Source: Planctomycetia bacterium (GTDB lineage: Bacteria; Planctomycetota; UBA8108; SXIK01). From it: a stretch of DNA of 56,406 nt. The DNA lies in assembly GCA_005772855.1 (NCBI GenBank), contig SXIK01000169.1, positions 1-56,406 of the forward strand, read 5' to 3'. The notes under the pieces are model-generated. The model was not told where the DNA came from. It saw only the letters and a program-made list of their open reading frames with translations, and did no database searches. Below, piece by piece: positions 8,494 to 16,857 of the stretch. Position numbers and translations under genes: made by a program. Positions within the stretch are counted from its first letter, which is position 1; every line of letters starts with the position of its first letter.

Positions 8494-9846
8494 TTACTTG
8501 CGCTGGGCGGTACTCAACGTACGGATGGAGGCTTGCAATTGCACCCGGCGAAGACGCCCCTCAAGTTTCGGGGGACTTCCGTCCGGTGCCTCCCTCCAGC
8601 GGCTCTCCACCCAGATCATGCTGAAACCTTTGGCCGAGGCGACCACTTGCGGCGAATGAGCCGACGATCCCTCGGACGACTCCACCGGCACAGCCTCTGC
8701 CCGCGCGTCGTTTCCGAGGGTGCTGTAGACGTTCCCATCGCTTGACTCCCAGGCCAGCGCGAAGCTTCCTTGCGGGTCCACGGCCAGGGAGGCGCGTCCT
8801 GGCTGAGACTGCGGACCACCCAGGCGGCAGCATGGAAGTCCACTCTCTCGTGTGCCCGAGAAGGCGGTGGATCCCGGAGCAGAACCCGTGCCTCGGGCCG
8901 CCACGAGAGGCGCAGGCTTCGTGAAAGTCCGGCCGCCGTCCTGTGAGTCCGCGCGCCATAGGCAAGGTTCCCCGGCCGTTCCGTCCATCCATGCGATGTG
9001 GATCGAGCCCGAGGGTCCCAGGGCGATCGACGGCGCGTCCGTGGGACATGCGAGGTACCTCCAGCCGCCGGCGGAAATCGTAACCTGTGGGCCGAAGTCT
9101 TCGTTGCCGGGGAGTAGACTCATGCCGCGAAGAAAGAGCTCCTCGCCAACGCGATCTCGATAGACGACGTGGAGAGCACCATCCCTTCTCGAGGCCAGAG
9201 CGGGCCTGCAGCATGTGCAGACGCCGTCCTTGGACGCCGTGAGTGCCCTGCTTCGCTCGAAAGTTCTGCAGCCGTCCTTCGAGGTCGAGAAATAGATCTG
9301 CTTTCGGTTTTGATACCCGGCATCAGAGTCCCGCTCGTCAAGCCAGGCAAGAGCGACCTGGCCATCCGGGAGCACGGCGATGTCCTGGTACTCCTGCCCG
9401 GCTTCACCGCGATCGTCGTTGACCCTCACGGGTGGGTGGAACGTCCGCCCTCCGTCGTCGCTTGCAGCCACAACGATGTCCCCTGCCGGGTCAAGGGCTC
9501 GATCGACCCACGAAACAAGGATGCGGCCCGAGGGTAGCCTCGCCATGCGCGGCCCGACCTGACGGCCCGCCACGGCTGAATTTCGGACGGGATTGACACG
9601 GACCGGAGTCTCACCCCAGCGAGAAAAGAGGATGTCCGCGCCGCCATCGTCAGCCACAAGGCCCCATGTGACGATCATGGATCCGTCCGGCTCCCCAAGT
9701 GCGTGTGGGCATTCAGATCTACCCTCATCCACTGGAGCGCGGGCGGTGAGCTCCTCCTGCGGGGCCGAAACGCAGCCCACGAGCACCCACGCAAACCCCA
9801 GAAAAATGCCGCAGCGGGTCCATGAACAAGTGGTGAAGGCCGTCAT
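8494..9846 (-). CDS. Asp-box (BNR/sialidase-like) lipoprotein
   Basis: 450-residue predicted lipoprotein: hydrophobic leader with lipobox LVGC (Cys25). It has at least three Asp-box turns (SDDGGRTF, SKDGCRTF, SQDGGRTF) characteristic of six-bladed sialidase-like propellers. Two cysteine clusters, CTCC and CC, are unusual for sialidases and might bind metal or form disulfides. I did not find the arginine triad or Asp/Tyr-Glu set needed to claim sialidase activity. The ATG at 9846 overlaps the stop of the ApbE-like gene (ATGA); a TTG at 9858 is an alternative start. Third gene of the porin / FMN-binding-ApbE / lipoprotein operon. Fold likely, substrate unknown. Confidence 0.85.
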   Translation of the reverse strand: MTAFTTCSWTRCGIFLGFAWVLVGCVSAPQEELTARAPVDEGRSECPHALGEPDGSMIVTWGLVADDGGADILFSRWGETPVRVNPVRNSAVAGRQVGPRMARLPSGRILVSWVDRALDPAGDIVVAASDDGGRTFHPPVRVNDDRGEAGQEYQDIAVLPDGQVALAWLDERDSDAGYQNRKQIYFSTSKDGCRTFERSRALTASKDGVCTCCRPALASRRDGALHVVYRDRVGEELFLRGMSLLPGNEDFGPQVTISAGGWRYLACPTDAPSIALGPSGSIHIAWMDGTAGEPCLWRADSQDGGRTFTKPAPLVAARGTGSAPGSTAFSGTRESGLPCCRLGGPQSQPGRASLAVDPQGSFALAWESSDGNVYSTLGNDARAEAVPVESSEGSSAHSPQVVASAKGFSMIWVESRWREAPDGSPPKLEGRLRRVQLQASIRTLSTAQRK

Positions 9847-11438
9847 TCGAGTCGCCAACCTTTCGTGCTGAAGAATCTCGATCCGTCCGTCTCCTCGATC
9901 GCCACCAGGCCTTCAACGCCCGGGCGTCCTTCCAGAAACGCTGTCCCCTCGCGCCCGAGGACGAAGGCTGCGGTCGAGTAGCCGTCGGCGAGGCCCGCCG
10001 TGGGAGCAGTGACGCTGGTTCCATGGACGCCATCGACGGGCTGGAGAGTGAGTGGGGAAACTATGTGCGAGCGTGGGCGCCCGCCGACCTCCGCATGCCG
10101 CTCGTAGTTTCCGCTCGAGGAGATCGCAGCATCTCGCAAGCGCAAAATGCCGAGTATCCGGGTCGGCTCCACGGGGTCACGGACAGCGATCGGCCAGGCC
10201 TCAAGGCCCGGCGGCGACCCCACCGCGTACATGTTTCCCGAGAAGTCAATCAGCGCCGACTGGACGCCATCTTCGCGCAGGCTCCTCGCCGCCAGGTCGA
10301 CGGCGAAGCCCTTGCCCAGGGCACCCGGGTCGAGCGCCATGCCGTGCCGCTTCAGCCGGGCACGGAAGGCTCCGGAAGCGTCCCGTTCGAGCACAACCCC
10401 CTGCGGTCCCACGAGAGGCCGCAGTTGGGCAAGATCCTCGGCGGTCGGCTCGGAAGCCACTGGCCCCTGTACACCCCAGGCCCGAACCAGCGGTCCCACG
10501 GTCATGTCGAAGGCGCCTTGCGACTCCTCTGCTATCCGTGCGGAGAGTTCAAGGAACTCGCCAGTGAGGCGAGAGACCTGGATCAACTCCTCACCGGCCT
10601 TGCGGCTGAGCTCGCTGAGCTCGCTCGTGGGCCTGTAGTTGCTCAGTGCATGGTCGGCGGCCTCGATCCTTGAAAATGCACGGGCAACGACCCCCCGAAG
10701 CCAGGCGCGATCCGGACCAAAGGCCCGGATCTCACACAGAGCGCCCATCACAAGTCGAGTTTCCGACACAAGGACGTCGCCGCTTGCTGGCTCCGGGTGG
10801 TCCGGCATCGGTTCCAGGGCGGCACCAGGGGACTTGAGGAGCTGCTCGATCCTCATCGGCTGCCCAAGATATGCAGAGGAGACCACCGCAAGCACCTTCT
10901 TCACACCCGCATTCAGAGAGTTCACACTCATCGTTGCGCCGCTGATGCCCAGGATGTCGCGGTTCAAGCGAATGGGGTCGCTCGCACGCTTGCCGGGATA
11001 CTGTGAAAGGAACCTGCGGCGCGCAATCTCGCCTCCGCGACTCTCACGGTAGCTCAGGATGGCGACGCGGCGCACGGCACCATTGGGCTCGAGTCCAACG
11101 ATGAACTTGAAGGGCTTGAACTTGCCGATTTCCTCGTGGATGACCGCGAACCCGTCCAGAGATCCGTCCGCCTTGACGCCTGCGTGCACCGTGAAACCGG
11201 GCTCCAGAATCCGGGCTTCGAGCCTCGACTCTGCTCTCTCGCGCTCCTCGCCCCTCAGCACAAGGCACTCGGAGACAAGTCTTCTTGAGCCCGGAAACAC
11301 CAGCCGCAACGCCTCGTCCTCCGTCATGTAATCGGTTGTCGCCGGATCTCGGCCAGAGGATCCGCCCCCGGGCGCACGGCAGGAGACCAGCGCGAGAGCG
11401 ACGATCGCAGAGAGAGATTGGGGTACAACTTGACGCAT
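9843..11438 (-). CDS. Fused FMN-binding domain and ApbE-like FAD:protein FMN transferase lipoprotein
   Basis: 531 residues beginning with a lipoprotein-type leader (LALVSC). First domain (about 60-185) is an FMN_bind domain like those of NqrC, RnfG and NosR; it carries SGAT with the Thr (about 169) that accepts FMN through a phosphoester. Second domain (about 225-531) is ApbE/Ftp, which transfers FMN from FAD to such Thr residues: DPGALGKGFAVDLA, SSSGNYERH, HIVSPLTLQP and TAGLADGYSTAAFVLG. Donor enzyme and acceptor thus sit in one chain. The ATG at 11438 begins 11 bases after the porin stop. Operon with the porin and the Asp-box lipoprotein suggests an extracytoplasmic flavin redox function. 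Family calls strong, role inferred. Confidence 0.9.
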   Translation of the reverse strand: MRQVVPQSLSAIVALALVSCRAPGGGSSGRDPATTDYMTEDEALRLVFPGSRRLVSECLVLRGEERERAESRLEARILEPGFTVHAGVKADGSLDGFAVIHEEIGKFKPFKFIVGLEPNGAVRRVAILSYRESRGGEIARRRFLSQYPGKRASDPIRLNRDILGISGATMSVNSLNAGVKKVLAVVSSAYLGQPMRIEQLLKSPGAALEPMPDHPEPASGDVLVSETRLVMGALCEIRAFGPDRAWLRGVVARAFSRIEAADHALSNYRPTSELSELSRKAGEELIQVSRLTGEFLELSARIAEESQGAFDMTVGPLVRAWGVQGPVASEPTAEDLAQLRPLVGPQGVVLERDASGAFRARLKRHGMALDPGALGKGFAVDLAARSLREDGVQSALIDFSGNMYAVGSPPGLEAWPIAVRDPVEPTRILGILRLRDAAISSSGNYERHAEVGGRPRSHIVSPLTLQPVDGVHGTSVTAPTAGLADGYSTAAFVLGREGTAFLEGRPGVEGLVAIEETDGSRFFSTKGWRLE

Positions 11439-11449
11439 GGAGAGGAATC

Positions 11450-12808
11450 TCAGAAATAGGAGGCCAGGCTGACGAGGAAGGCGTCGAGGTCTGCCGTCTC
11501 CGAGGCTCTTGCGACGCCGCGGTTGAACTGGTAGTCGAGCTTGATGACAGTGGATTCGACCGGCCGGAAATTGAGGCCAACCGTCCAGCGGTAGCGTCGG
11601 TCTCCGTCCAGGTTTACCTGGTTCCACTGTCCAACCAACGTGAAGATGGACTCGGGGAAAAGTGCGGTAGTAACTCGTGTGCCCCTTGGGAGGAAGTACT
11701 CGGGCAGGAAGTGGTAGTTCACCTGGGTGTAGTAGCCCCAGAAGTCATCGGGAACACCTTCCGACCTCGCGAAAGTGTTTCGCTCGATTGCAGCGTAGGC
11801 ACCTTCGCCGAGGATCTCCATCGGGCCCACGGGGAGATCTCCGATCTCGAACTGCGGGATTGTGAAGAGCGCGTCCACGGCCGCGATCGTGAGGTCGTTC
11901 TCGCCCGACTCATCGTAGGTTCCGTGGTGGGCGCTCACGCCGAGCTCGGAAGCAAGGAGTGGGCTAAAGCTCACGCGTCCGACACCGGCGAAACCGTTGT
12001 TGTTGTCGCCGAAGTGCCGCGTTCCGAACGCAGGCTCGTGGGCTCTGGCCTCCCTGAGACCAGCACTGCGCGTGATGGCGGGGTCAGCGGCAGGATCATC
12101 GCTGAGCCCCTTGAAGCCGCTGGTCAAGTAGGCCTCATACTTGACGTCGAGGTCCAGGGTGCCGGTCGGAATGACACCAAAAATCCCGGCACCCGGCTCC
12201 CTGAGAGTCGTGGGAATCACGAGCTGGTTTACGAGGGGCCGATCGACGAGATCGTAGTACGGCGAGTCATGGTAGAGGTTGAAGCGGCCCAAGGGATCCA
12301 GGATCACGCCTCCGCGGAAGTTCAAGGCCTCGAAGAGAAGGAGATCGAGAGCGGCGAACTCAACCTCGACCGTCGAGCCATCCTCGATCTCGATCTCGGT
12401 TGCGAACCGTACGCGCTCGTGAAGATCGGCCACGAAGAAGGGCACCAGGCGGTGAAGCCGAAAATCGTGGTCGCGGGACTCACGGTCCATGAACTCGACG
12501 TCGAAGTAGCCGCCCACGTGCGTCTGGATGCCGCCTGCCTGGCGCAAGAACGGCTTGTCGTAAAGGCTGCCACCCGGGCCCGAACCCACGCCAAGGACAG
12601 GACTGCCCCCGCCGGGCAGGTCCCCCTCGCTTGCGGGGCCCTGCTGGGCCATCGCGGAAGGCTCGCCACGCCGGAGCGCCTCCAGCTCCCCGCGGAGTTT
12701 TTCGAACTCCTCCCGCGACACGGGAGCGTCGTCGGATCGGACCTTGCTGCCAGAGCCCCAGACACAGACGAGCGACAAGACGAGCAGCGGTGCAAAGAAG
12801 AATTTCAT
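11450..12808 (-). CDS. Porin-like outer-membrane beta-barrel protein
   Basis: 452 residues with a signal peptide (MKFFFAPLLVLSLVCVWGSG), a short coiled-coil-like stretch (VSREEFEKLRGELEALRRG), then alternating amphipathic strands ending in Phe (LVSLASYF), as expected for an outer-membrane barrel. Segments such as YFDVEFMDRESRDHDFRLHR and the closing YQFNRG strand recall phosphate-selective porin O/P-like proteins. The ATG at 12808 has AGGAAG upstream; the longer frame to 12862 is unlikely. First gene of the operon with the FMN-binding/ApbE fusion and Asp-box lipoprotein, and it has a good sigma-70 promoter. Substrate unknown. Confidence 0.8.
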   Translation of the reverse strand: MKFFFAPLLVLSLVCVWGSGSKVRSDDAPVSREEFEKLRGELEALRRGEPSAMAQQGPASEGDLPGGGSPVLGVGSGPGGSLYDKPFLRQAGGIQTHVGGYFDVEFMDRESRDHDFRLHRLVPFFVADLHERVRFATEIEIEDGSTVEVEFAALDLLLFEALNFRGGVILDPLGRFNLYHDSPYYDLVDRPLVNQLVIPTTLREPGAGIFGVIPTGTLDLDVKYEAYLTSGFKGLSDDPAADPAITRSAGLREARAHEPAFGTRHFGDNNNGFAGVGRVSFSPLLASELGVSAHHGTYDESGENDLTIAAVDALFTIPQFEIGDLPVGPMEILGEGAYAAIERNTFARSEGVPDDFWGYYTQVNYHFLPEYFLPRGTRVTTALFPESIFTLVGQWNQVNLDGDRRYRWTVGLNFRPVESTVIKLDYQFNRGVARASETADLDAFLVSLASYF

Positions 12809-12896
12809 TTGCTTCCTACAGGTGTGGCTGGGTTGCTCCCTGACGAAGTTGGGCAATCCCACTTTGGGTTTGTTGTAGCCAATTTAAGTTTGGGCT

Positions 12897-12987: not shown

Positions 12988-15900
12988 TCACTCCCTGCCG
13001 AGTCGCCTGAGAAACTCGAGGGCCCCGCGGTGATCCGGGTGGAGCGTCAGCAGTGAGCGCAAGACCTCCCTCGCCCTGGCTTCATCCCCTGCGCTCAAAT
13101 GACTCCGGGCCAGATGGAGGTACGGAGGTGATAGATGGGGGGCAAGGGCCACGGCCCTCTGGAAGTGTTCGATCGCTTCGACATCCCTACCCAGGCCTTG
13201 CAGCAGAAGACCCGCATTGTTGTGGGCAGAAGCGTACCCGGGGTCGACCTCAATGGCCTTTTCGAGAGCTTTCAACGCCTCACTGGGCCGGCCCGACTCA
13301 GCCGCGAGCACGCCCAAATTGCTCCAGGCCTCTGCGTCCCGGGGAGCAAGCTTCACCACCCTCTCATAGGCCTTCAGGGCCTGCTTCAGGTTCCCCACCT
13401 TGCGGTGGGCGTCACCTATCTTTTTTTGGATTTGCGGCAGCTCGGGCTCGAGGTCCTGCGCCCTTGCGAATGATCCAATGGCGTCCTCTGGCCGTCCGCG
13501 GGCCAGCTCAACATTGCCCAGGTTGATCCACGCCTCCGCGTGGTCTCCACGGAGCTCGAGAACCCGCCGAAAGGAACGCTCCGCCTCGTCCAGGGCGCCT
13601 GTCCGGGCGAGCAGCACGCCCAGGTTGACGTGCGCATCGGCAAAGTCAGGCTCGAGCTCGAGCGCCTCCGAGTAGCGTCGAGAAGCCTTTTCGCTCTCGC
13701 CTCGCCTCTGATGCAGGACACCTGCGTTGTACAGCACATCGGGCTGATCACGGCGCCTCGAGAGGCTCCGTTCAAATGCCGCGAGGGCTTGCGTCTCGAG
13801 CCCGGCCTCCAGATAGGAGACACCCAGCTGGAAATCGTTTCGATGAAACTCGCTCGAGTAATGGCGTCCAGGAAACGGCAGCGCAGCCGCAAGTCTCGAC
13901 TCGACAGATCCTGGAATGGAGGCCGCATCCTTGTGGATCTCCTGCCACCCGACTGCTCCTCGGTAGATCTTGACAATCCGCCCTTCGCCATCGATCAAGA
14001 GCGAGGCCGGCACTGGAATTTCCCGGGGCCACTCCCCCACCTCCTCGAGAAGCACCCCCAGGGAAAGTGCGCTCTCCTCGCCGAGGATCAGTCCGATCAC
14101 TCCAGATGCCGTCCCAAGGGCGGAAACTTCACCCATTCTGGCATTTTCAGCCTGCAGGAGCGCGATCACCGGAAGCTCCGGTTCGGACCGGGGCAAGATG
14201 CGCTCCCGAGCCCAGTCTTCCCACTGCGCCTGGCAGCGCGGGCAGTCGAGAGACCCAAGCGCAAGAAGGAAGGGGTGTCCACGGAGGCTCGACAGCTCGA
14301 ACTTCTGGGCACCTGGGCCGGAAAGCTCGAGTGGCGGGAGTGGGCGAGGGTCGAGGAGCCAGAAGGCCGTGGTGCTCGGACCCGGAGCGGGAATCTGCGA
14401 GGGGACTCGAGGGGATGTGGCTCCACGGGCTGGGGCATCGAAGGCCATGGCCTCGACCTTTTCGGAGCCCTCGACGATTCGGTAGCGGCGATTCACGGCG
14501 AGTGCTCGAAAGGTTTGCGTCTTTCCGCTGGGCCATCGGACTTCCAGGCGCTCGACGGACCTCGCGTCTCCCAGGCCAAAGTGGAGGAGCGAAGTATTTT
14601 GCGACACAAAGCCGCTCCCGGCACAGACCTCCTTTACTCTCGGGCGACCGCCTGCATTCAAGGTGACCCGGGCACCGATGGCCTGTCGATTCGAGGTGAC
14701 GCCCACCAGATGAATCTGGACTCGAGTTCCGGGGCTCGGAAAATCGTTGCGCCAGATCCGCACTTGCGGCGCGTTCCGGCTCTTGAGGACCAGATCGAGG
14801 TCTCCATCGCGGTCAAAGTCCCAGACCGCAAGCCCGCGGCCGTCCTCCGGCACGTCGAGGCCCATCACGGCGGACACATTCTCGAACCTCCCGTTCGCCC
14901 CCTGCACGAAAAAACAGTTTCGTTCGTGGCCGGACCAGGATCCACCGCGACGGATGAGCCGATTGATCGCCTCCCAGGCCTCCTCGTAGCGGGCGAGCTG
15001 CCTCGTCACCCCGGTGGCCCGCGGCACGACCTGCCGCCAGAAAAAGCTTCAGAGGTCCTCGACGCCTTCGTTCGTGACGAAACCGTTGGAAACGTAGAGG
15101 TCCTCGCGGCCATCGGAGTCGTAGTCGATGAACTGGCTCGACCAGGACCAGCGGCCGAAATAGGTGTTCGATTCAAGGCTTTGATCCTCGAACCGGCCAT
15201 TGCCCAGGTTACGAAAGAGCGAGTTGCCTCGAGCCATCCGTCGGTAGGTAGCCCGCAAGTCGACACTGGCACTGCCTCCAAATCCCGACTGCTCCGCAAG
15301 GCGGTTTCCGGCGGCTGACCACATGTTTCCCACGTAAAGATCGATGCGGCCGTCCCCGTCGTAGTCCTCCCACGTCACGCTCATGCCATTGCCGATATCC
15401 TCGACACCCGCTTCGGTGGCGACGTCCCTGAAGGTGCCGTCACCTTGATTCTGGTAGAGGTTGTTCTTGCCAAAATCGTTGGCGACGTAGATGTCGGGGT
15501 CCCCATCCGCGTCGTAGTCGGCCCACGAAGCCGCCAGGCTAAAGCGCCGATTGTTGACATCGAGGCGTGAGGCTCCTGTCACGTCCGAAAACTTGAAGTT
15601 CCCCTCGTTTCGAAGGAGCATATTCGGCGCTCCGTTGTTGGCGTCATGATAGGGGTACGGATAGGAGCTGTGGGGTCTGGCGCCGGCTCCCGCCCAGAAG
15701 ACATAGCTCACACAGTAGAGGTCAAGATCGTTGTCGCTGTCGTAGTCGGCAGCCGCGCAGGCAATGCTTGCGCCGCCCTCCCGGTGCCTGACCTCAAGCC
15801 CCGTGTTCTGGCGACGCTCGAAACGACCCTTGCCATTGTTCTCGAAGATCAAGATCTCCTGGGAAGTCACGACGACAAGATCCAGGTCTCCATCGTTGTC

Positions 15901-16857
15901 GGCGTCGAGAAATAGTGAGCCACCGGTAGTGTCAAGAACGCCCAGACCGGACCACTCCGTAGAGTCAACAAAGGTGCCATCGCGCTGGTTGCGGTAGAGA
16001 CGGTTGGGTAGGCCTGCCGGTTGCGCGATGTAGAGATCCTCCCAGCCATCACCGTCGAAGTCTCCCACGCTGACTCCCTGGTGTCCGTAAACATCCATGC
16101 CGCTTGCCGAGTCGAGGCGCCTCCGCCACTGGTCGAGCCCAACCTGGAGCTGCAAGAAATAGGAGGCGTTGCCGCCGAGCGCATCCTGGCTCACCTCCAC
16201 GAAGGGCCGGGCCTTGAGGCGAGACCGCTCGAAGCGAATTGGCAGCAACTCCCCGAGGCGCCAGGAGCTTGATTCCTGAATCCACACGCAGTCCCACACG
16301 GACCGTATCTGGAGGAGCTCTCCGGAAGCGAGAAGGCCATCCGCCTCGAGCAGGACTCGAGTCGAGACGCTCGGGGGCATGCTCTCCCGGCGCTGGATGC
16401 GGAAGACCTTGAACTTTGCCTTCTCCATTCGGGAGGCTCCGCCAAGAGACCTCTTGAGCTCGCGCGAAAGCTCGAGCGGAGTCATCGGATGGGTCGGCTC
16501 GCTCTCCGGGACCTCCGACCGCTCCACCTCAAGATGGCTCTCCGAAAGGATCGTATCGAGTTGCTCGGATGCCCTCGTGTGCGAGCGAAAGCCCGAGGCC
16601 AGGAGAGGTCCGAGCGAGTCCTCGCCCAAATCAAGTGTCGAGATGCGCTCGGATAGCTCCTTTAGTCGATCGTTCAACTCGTCGTTGAGCTTCTCTACTG
16701 GCCACTCATCGCGGCCGCTTGCCACTTTCTCGAACACCCAGTCGAGCAGCCCGGCGCGCGAGGAGGTACGCTCGGGCCGAAGCATACGATCCTCACCAGG
16801 AGCCTCGACGCACATCACGAGGGCGCAAGCAACGGGTACAAGGAGGCAAGATCGCAT
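12988..16857 (-). CDS. CRTAC1-like FG-GAP/ASPIC-UnbV - redoxin - TPR protein, predicted selenoprotein (Sec603)
   Basis: Read through the in-frame TGA at 15049-15051, this is a 1289-residue secreted protein starting at ATG 16857 (MRSCLLVPVACALV leader). Order: family N-terminal region (about 20-250); FG-GAP/VCBS Ca-binding repeats (about 260-590, e.g. SVGDFDGDGWEDLYIAQP); Sec603 in EDL-U-SFFWRQVV; a further FG-GAP repeat; ASPIC/UnbV domain (about 705-785); thioredoxin-fold domain with DCPRCQAQW (about 850-990); seven or so TPRs (1000-1289). Both halves are in the same frame with no other lesion. The seven codons after TGA read SFFWRQV, which I recall as conserved in this family, so a second start at GTG 15027 would be wrong. 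A SECIS-like hairpin follows. The alternative is a single nonsense mutation. Role unknown; many Planctomycetota encode such extracellular proteins. Confidence 0.8.
15021..15051 (-). promoter_or_regulatory. Bacterial SECIS-like element in the CRTAC1-like gene
   Basis: Begins at the TGA. Nucleotides 12-17 after TGA (GCGGCA) pair with 23-28 (TGCCGC); the five-base loop is GGTCG, starting at nucleotide 18. The bacterial consensus is a short stem with a G among the first two loop bases, about 16-37 bases from UGA. The loop region GCAGGTC also resembles E. coli fdhF. Confidence 0.72.

Follow-up and report, generated by a model that had tools for sequence, protein, structure and literature searches.

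CRTAC1 and the bacterial ASPIC/UnbV proteins carry an FG-GAP beta-propeller followed by an ASPIC/UnbV domain, and no selenocysteine (Sec) form of them is described in the sources that we searched. A May 2026 review catalogues 119 prokaryotic selenoprotein families or subfamilies, and none of these is an FG-GAP, ASPIC/UnbV or CRTAC1 selenoprotein; the TlpA-type selenoprotein in the catalogue has its Sec within its own motif, UGC (PMC13188914). A CRTAC1-like selenoprotein is likewise absent from the nine new families of deep-Sep. NCBIfam 20.0 has no model for one and gave only TPR or sub-cut-off matches in the window, by which we mean the whole stretch of planctomycete DNA analyzed here (56,406 nucleotides). 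Rfam gave no match in the window beyond a chance, below-threshold match to MEG3 at the TGA described below. A literature search, with preprints and most subscription papers outside its reach, returned nothing that joins selenoprotein or selenocysteine with UnbV and only unrelated work that joins them with CRTAC1 or ASPIC/FG-GAP. The first-pass annotation of this DNA knew of no CRTAC1-type selenoprotein, and by the catalogue, NCBIfam and the papers searched, the CRTAC1-like selenoprotein is a new family of a known kind, with a prior description elsewhere being possible.

The window protein has the same order of FG-GAP propeller and ASPIC/UnbV domain as CRTAC1 and the bacterial ASPIC/UnbV proteins but adds a thioredoxin domain and TPRs in the same chain, and murine CRTAC1 has no aligned counterpart of its Sec-bearing insertion. 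With known bacterial selenoproteins it shares an in-frame UGA, a SECIS element directly downstream in the coding region, Cys homologues and the Sec machinery, and most long members of the family also have the thioredoxin-type partner motif. Unlike in known bacterial selenoproteins, the Sec of this family is on the propeller and not in a thioredoxin fold, and many of the sense homologues do not have Cys. The C-terminal domain of most relatives carries a motif of the WASWCxPC type (SLDCPRC in the window), as in the TlpA and ResA thiol-disulfide oxidoreductases, but in this family the domain is fused behind the Sec-bearing propeller.

One TGA alone (15049-15051, codon 603) interrupts the minus-strand frame that runs from 16857 to 12988. 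Seven codons reading SFFWRQV follow it, and then GTG 15027, which starts a second apparent ORF (15027-12988). The earlier description of two apparent genes in one frame, separated by a single TGA and SFFWRQV, is exact. Pfam matches lie on either side of the TGA, with FG-GAP repeats before it and one further FG-GAP repeat, ASPIC/UnbV and TPRs after it, and the two parts rebuild the FG-GAP then ASPIC/UnbV order in one chain, as had been proposed. We conclude from the sequence that the locus is very probably a single gene for a multidomain selenoprotein with Sec at UGA603. Its features are as follows.

12988..16857, minus strand: whole selenoprotein gene, 1289 residues with Sec at 603; the full-length architecture is kept in relatives.
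16896, minus strand: alternative TTG start of the selenoprotein gene.
14788..16074, minus strand: FG-GAP repeats forming the CRTAC1-like beta-propeller, interrupted by the Sec-bearing insertion (Pfam, family profile, fold).
15049..15051, minus strand: in-frame UGA, proposed selenocysteine codon 603; TGA in four phyla, Cys in two homologue groups.
15021..15037, minus strand: SECIS hairpin core, nt +12 to +28 past the UGA, with a 6-bp stem GCGGCA/UGCCGC and the apical loop GGUCG at 15027-15031.
14482..14682, minus strand: ASPIC/UnbV domain (PF07593; Pfam, E 2.3e-22).
13960..14433, minus strand: TlpA/ResA-type thioredoxin domain (family profile and fold).
14233..14244, minus strand: CPRC, residues 872-875, proposed resolving pair for Sec603.
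13030..13749, minus strand: tetratricopeptide repeats (Pfam).

The encoded protein is a CRTAC1-like FG-GAP propeller with an ASPIC/UnbV domain, a TlpA/ResA-type thioredoxin domain (CPRC) and TPRs. The FG-GAP propeller plus ASPIC/UnbV domain that mark a CRTAC1-like protein are both present. An AlphaFold2 (AF2) model built with 43 sequences (pLDDT 88, pTM 0.90) had murine CRTAC1 as its best PDB match (9etn, E 9e-31), and its C-terminal domain matched TlpA and ResA. The window's own thioredoxin domain falls below the Pfam cut-off for AhpC-TSA or Redoxin (E 0.002, 18 bits versus cut-offs near 26), so its placement rests on the family profile and the fold; these and the AF2 model give a thioredoxin fold with a CxxC. 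The FG-GAP/ASPIC, redoxin and TPR architecture had thus been read correctly, the "redoxin" being this TlpA/ResA-type domain. Sec603 (model residue 385) is predicted to form the N terminus of a short helix inserted between propeller blades. This position is roughly the rim, where the first-pass annotation had put it. Reactive residues at the N terminus of a helix often have a lowered pKa. Export of the protein is suggested by its hydrophobic stretch near the N terminus and by its TlpA-like domain.

No conserved operon was found around the selenoprotein gene: within the 4-kb flanks the one recurring neighbor is a porin-like gene, shared with the nearest relative alone. In the window this porin-like ORF (11450-12862, minus strand) has no Pfam match and overlaps the next gene; its counterpart beside the selenoprotein gene of L087, the nearest relative, is 60% identical. 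The gene two positions downstream of the selenoprotein gene (9843-11627, minus strand) encodes an FMN-binding domain fused with ApbE (flavin transferase), which suggests an extracytosolic flavoprotein.

We searched 148 relatives with the 386 residues around the TGA and matched 111 of them. The best matches, from 75% down to about 45% identity, nearly all had exactly one TGA, at the codon 603 position. Chance does not explain the TGA, since homologues ranging from a relative with 75% identity to others with about 40% have a single in-frame TGA at this place. A scan of GTDB species genomes added members from Acidobacteriota, Verrucomicrobiota and Myxococcota, and all 66 of the stops that it found at this site were TGA, never TAA or TAG. 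We separately sampled 297 genomes from the phylum to which an acidobacterial member belongs, and one TGA was present in roughly half of the matches listed. Removal of near-copies left 89 UGA forms from Planctomycetota, Acidobacteriota, Verrucomicrobiota and Myxococcota. The seven codons between the TGA and the GTG vary mainly synonymously among homologues, which indicates that they are translated. The matched stretch of one UGA form (L042, G041:C17:80622-81713) also holds one in-frame TAG.

The first-pass annotation had proposed an alignment at EDL-x-SFFWRQ, where Cys or UGA would support Sec and only unrelated residues would speak against it. Both TGA and Cys are present at the position, Cys in L153 (Phycisphaerales, DLCSFFWRQVV) and in a distant homologue group (DYCTxFWxHD), and the aligned sense homologues include Cys but not Trp. 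Yet most sense forms have other residues: an Acidobacteriota clade has Ser, Gly, Ala, Met or Glu, and single rows outside it have Ala, Ser, Gln or Asn. This predominance of Ser, Gly, Ala, Met or Glu over Cys is unusual for a catalytic Sec and counts against it. On a tree built with the site masked, UGA versus other residues required 7 changes, and both the Acidobacteriota sense clade and L153 were placed among UGA forms; because the tree is unrooted, the direction of change is not fixed everywhere.

Published constraints on bacterial SECIS elements are a loop of 3 to 9 nt, a stem of 4 to 16 bp, a G in the first two loop positions, a distance of 16 to 37 nt from the UGA and a free energy of at most -7.5 kcal/mol (PMC13188914). 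We coded these by hand for scoring. The window hairpin (GCGGCA-GGUCG-UGCCGC), which lies within the coding frame, satisfies all of them, with a loop starting 17 nt past the TGA, a 6-bp stem and -10.0 kcal/mol. The SECIS of E. coli fdhF also has the apical loop GGUC, spaced almost identically from its UGA; its stem sequence and its protein differ. Among the 89 UGA forms, 58 passed the -7.5 kcal/mol limit and 30 more were at -6.5 to -7.4, the exception being L118 with a weak hairpin (-1.9 kcal/mol). The constraints were passed by 3 of 32 sense homologues. A SECIS-like hairpin (-9.5 kcal/mol) persists in L153, a Cys form, which fits a replacement of Sec by Cys not long ago.

We then scored UGA forms with Trp at +4 for a 5-bp stem (nt 13-17 with 23-27) against synonymous recodings that used each gene's own codon use. 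A perfect stem was present in 71/85 of them versus 3.4 +/- 1.8 expected (z = 38.6), with no excess in non-Cys sense homologues carrying the S[FY]FW motif (1/19 perfect versus 0.9 expected). In several stem pairs both bases had changed, and nt 15, the wobble base of the Arg codon, tracked the first base of codon 9 (nt 25), so the stem covaries beyond what protein coding explains. For the window gene by itself, the hairpin was not significant (27% of recodings were as good) because its codons are GC rich; the SECIS signal is that of the family. The SECIS-like hairpin noted past the TGA in the earlier annotation therefore meets the published constraints and is held by compensatory change across the family. 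In some genomes the family is highly duplicated, with at least ten UGA-form copies in G138. Five of its UGA-form paralogues form a tandem array (L168, G138:C253:27000-46000), and in each of the five the UGA is followed by a hairpin-forming sequence, the stems differing.

A search of the source genome for selA, selB, selC and selD, which the first-pass annotation had recommended, found all four, selC as a tRNA-Sec with anticodon UCA. An in-frame TGA also interrupts the SelD frame of this genome (L171, G000:C36:17289-18212), where it falls in a UxxK motif, the one listed for Sec-containing SelD (PMC13188914); this is independent support for Sec decoding in the source organism. In the window's phylum, sel genes were present in 41/42 tested UGA-form genomes, and the 8 tested genomes without sel genes, G087 apart, had no UGA form among the matches listed (Fisher p 0.012). 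G087 (90% complete) has a UGA form, with a strong hairpin after its UGA, and no clear selA, selB or selC. From the wider scan we sampled 30 genomes with UGA forms, and every one had selA or selC. Edaphobacter, Granulicella, acidobacterium KBS 89 and a Terriglobus MAG, which have Gly or Ser forms, showed no selA above the cut-off and no convincing tRNA-Sec, with one marginal match in Granulicella (47.6 bits). Other sense-form genomes retain sel genes, so the sel genes and the Sec codon were not lost in step. The conserved UGA in a continuous frame, the Sec/Cys pairs, the SECIS covariation and the genome's Sec machinery together support selenocysteine insertion at UGA603.

We propose that SelB and tRNA-Sec, directed by the hairpin 12-28 nt past the codon, would insert selenocysteine at UGA603 and that, in the exported protein, Sec603 on the CRTAC1-like propeller would act as the catalytic nucleophile on an oxidized or peroxide-type substrate. 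The tethered TlpA-type CxxC domain would then reduce Sec603 again, and the TPRs may dock partners. Of the long UGA forms 70/73 keep the thioredoxin CxxC, as against 1/20 of the non-Cys sense forms, and many of those sense forms that retain the domain have Ala/Ser-type residues instead. The Cys form L153 retains both domain and CxxC. The exceptions are L031 and L032, which keep UGA without the CxxC, and L124 (Ser), which keeps the CxxC. By raw counts the co-loss of Sec and CxxC is strong (Fisher 1e-15); on the tree it amounts to 3/4 independent events and is not significant, so the co-loss is suggestive. We somewhat favor an extracytoplasmic Sec-to-CxxC redox relay, and we hold it evenly balanced whether exported selenoenzymes of this kind, with a propeller Sec reduced by a thioredoxin domain of the same chain, make up a large and so far undescribed class.

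The Acidobacteriota clade (L091, L098, L101, L104, L105, L108, L111, L112, L123, L131, L135, L142, L147, L148, L150, L157 and L159) has lost Sec and the thioredoxin CxxC with the overall protein kept, and at its old Sec site the residue has drifted between Ser, Gly, Ala, Met and Glu. The UGA-form subfamilies L082, L083-L086, L042 and L046 mostly have no C-terminal thioredoxin domain. In these subfamilies a Cys lies near the Sec instead, as CU (L082), UxC (L083-L086) or U-x4-C.

Sec may instead be incorporated with the fused CxxC not serving as its reductant, the residue binding metal or being served by a separate reductase. We consider this a plausible but less probable arrangement, favored by the short UGA forms without a thioredoxin domain, some with Cys beside Sec, and by the persistence of UGA in L031 and L032 after loss of the CxxC; the strong overall association of UGA and CxxC in long forms argues against it. 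Insertion of Sec at UGA603 is common to this arrangement and the relay.

Read-through of a leaky stop can be promoted by a downstream hairpin, and the inserted residue cannot be named from sequence alone, so an ordinary tRNA (e.g., for Trp) might read the UGA to give long and short products with the hairpin as stimulator. We think this very unlikely, given a hairpin with bacterial SECIS geometry and loop G, Sec machinery in UGA-form genomes and aligned sense homologues that include Cys and not Trp. Marginally less likely still are two separate genes, the first terminated by the TGA and the second, for an ASPIC/thioredoxin/TPR protein, initiated at GTG 15027. The GTG seven codons past the TGA would lead standard annotation to call two ORFs, but such a split would fall inside the propeller, the intervening codons are conserved as protein, the sense-codon and Cys homologues are continuous single chains and no TAA or TAG replaces the TGA in the 66 stops at the site.

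A genetic code in which TGA specifies an amino acid throughout the genome, to which a conserved gene with an in-frame TGA might point, is rejected with near certainty, since TGA is the ordinary stop of neighboring genes in the window, the selA and selB frames have no internal TGA and a tRNA-Sec with anticodon UCA is present. Although the genome assembly is fragmented (244 contigs), a pseudogene or a sequencing or assembly error is refuted, again with practically no doubt, by TGA at the same codon in dozens of independent assemblies from four phyla and by selection on the codons and RNA structure around it.

With the single-gene reading and Sec at UGA603, four phyla gain a large selenoprotein family whose genes standard annotation would each split in two, which suggests that estimates of selenium use by Planctomycetota, Acidobacteriota and Verrucomicrobiota are too low. 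Work on the mechanism can draw on the variants that nature supplies in the Sec-to-Ser/Gly/Ala/Met series, most of them without the CxxC. For the CRTAC1/UnbV architecture, whose function is obscure, the family offers a redox role that can be tested, and if it does form the class of exported selenoenzymes set out above, the ASPIC/UnbV-propeller fold would gain a catalytic role.
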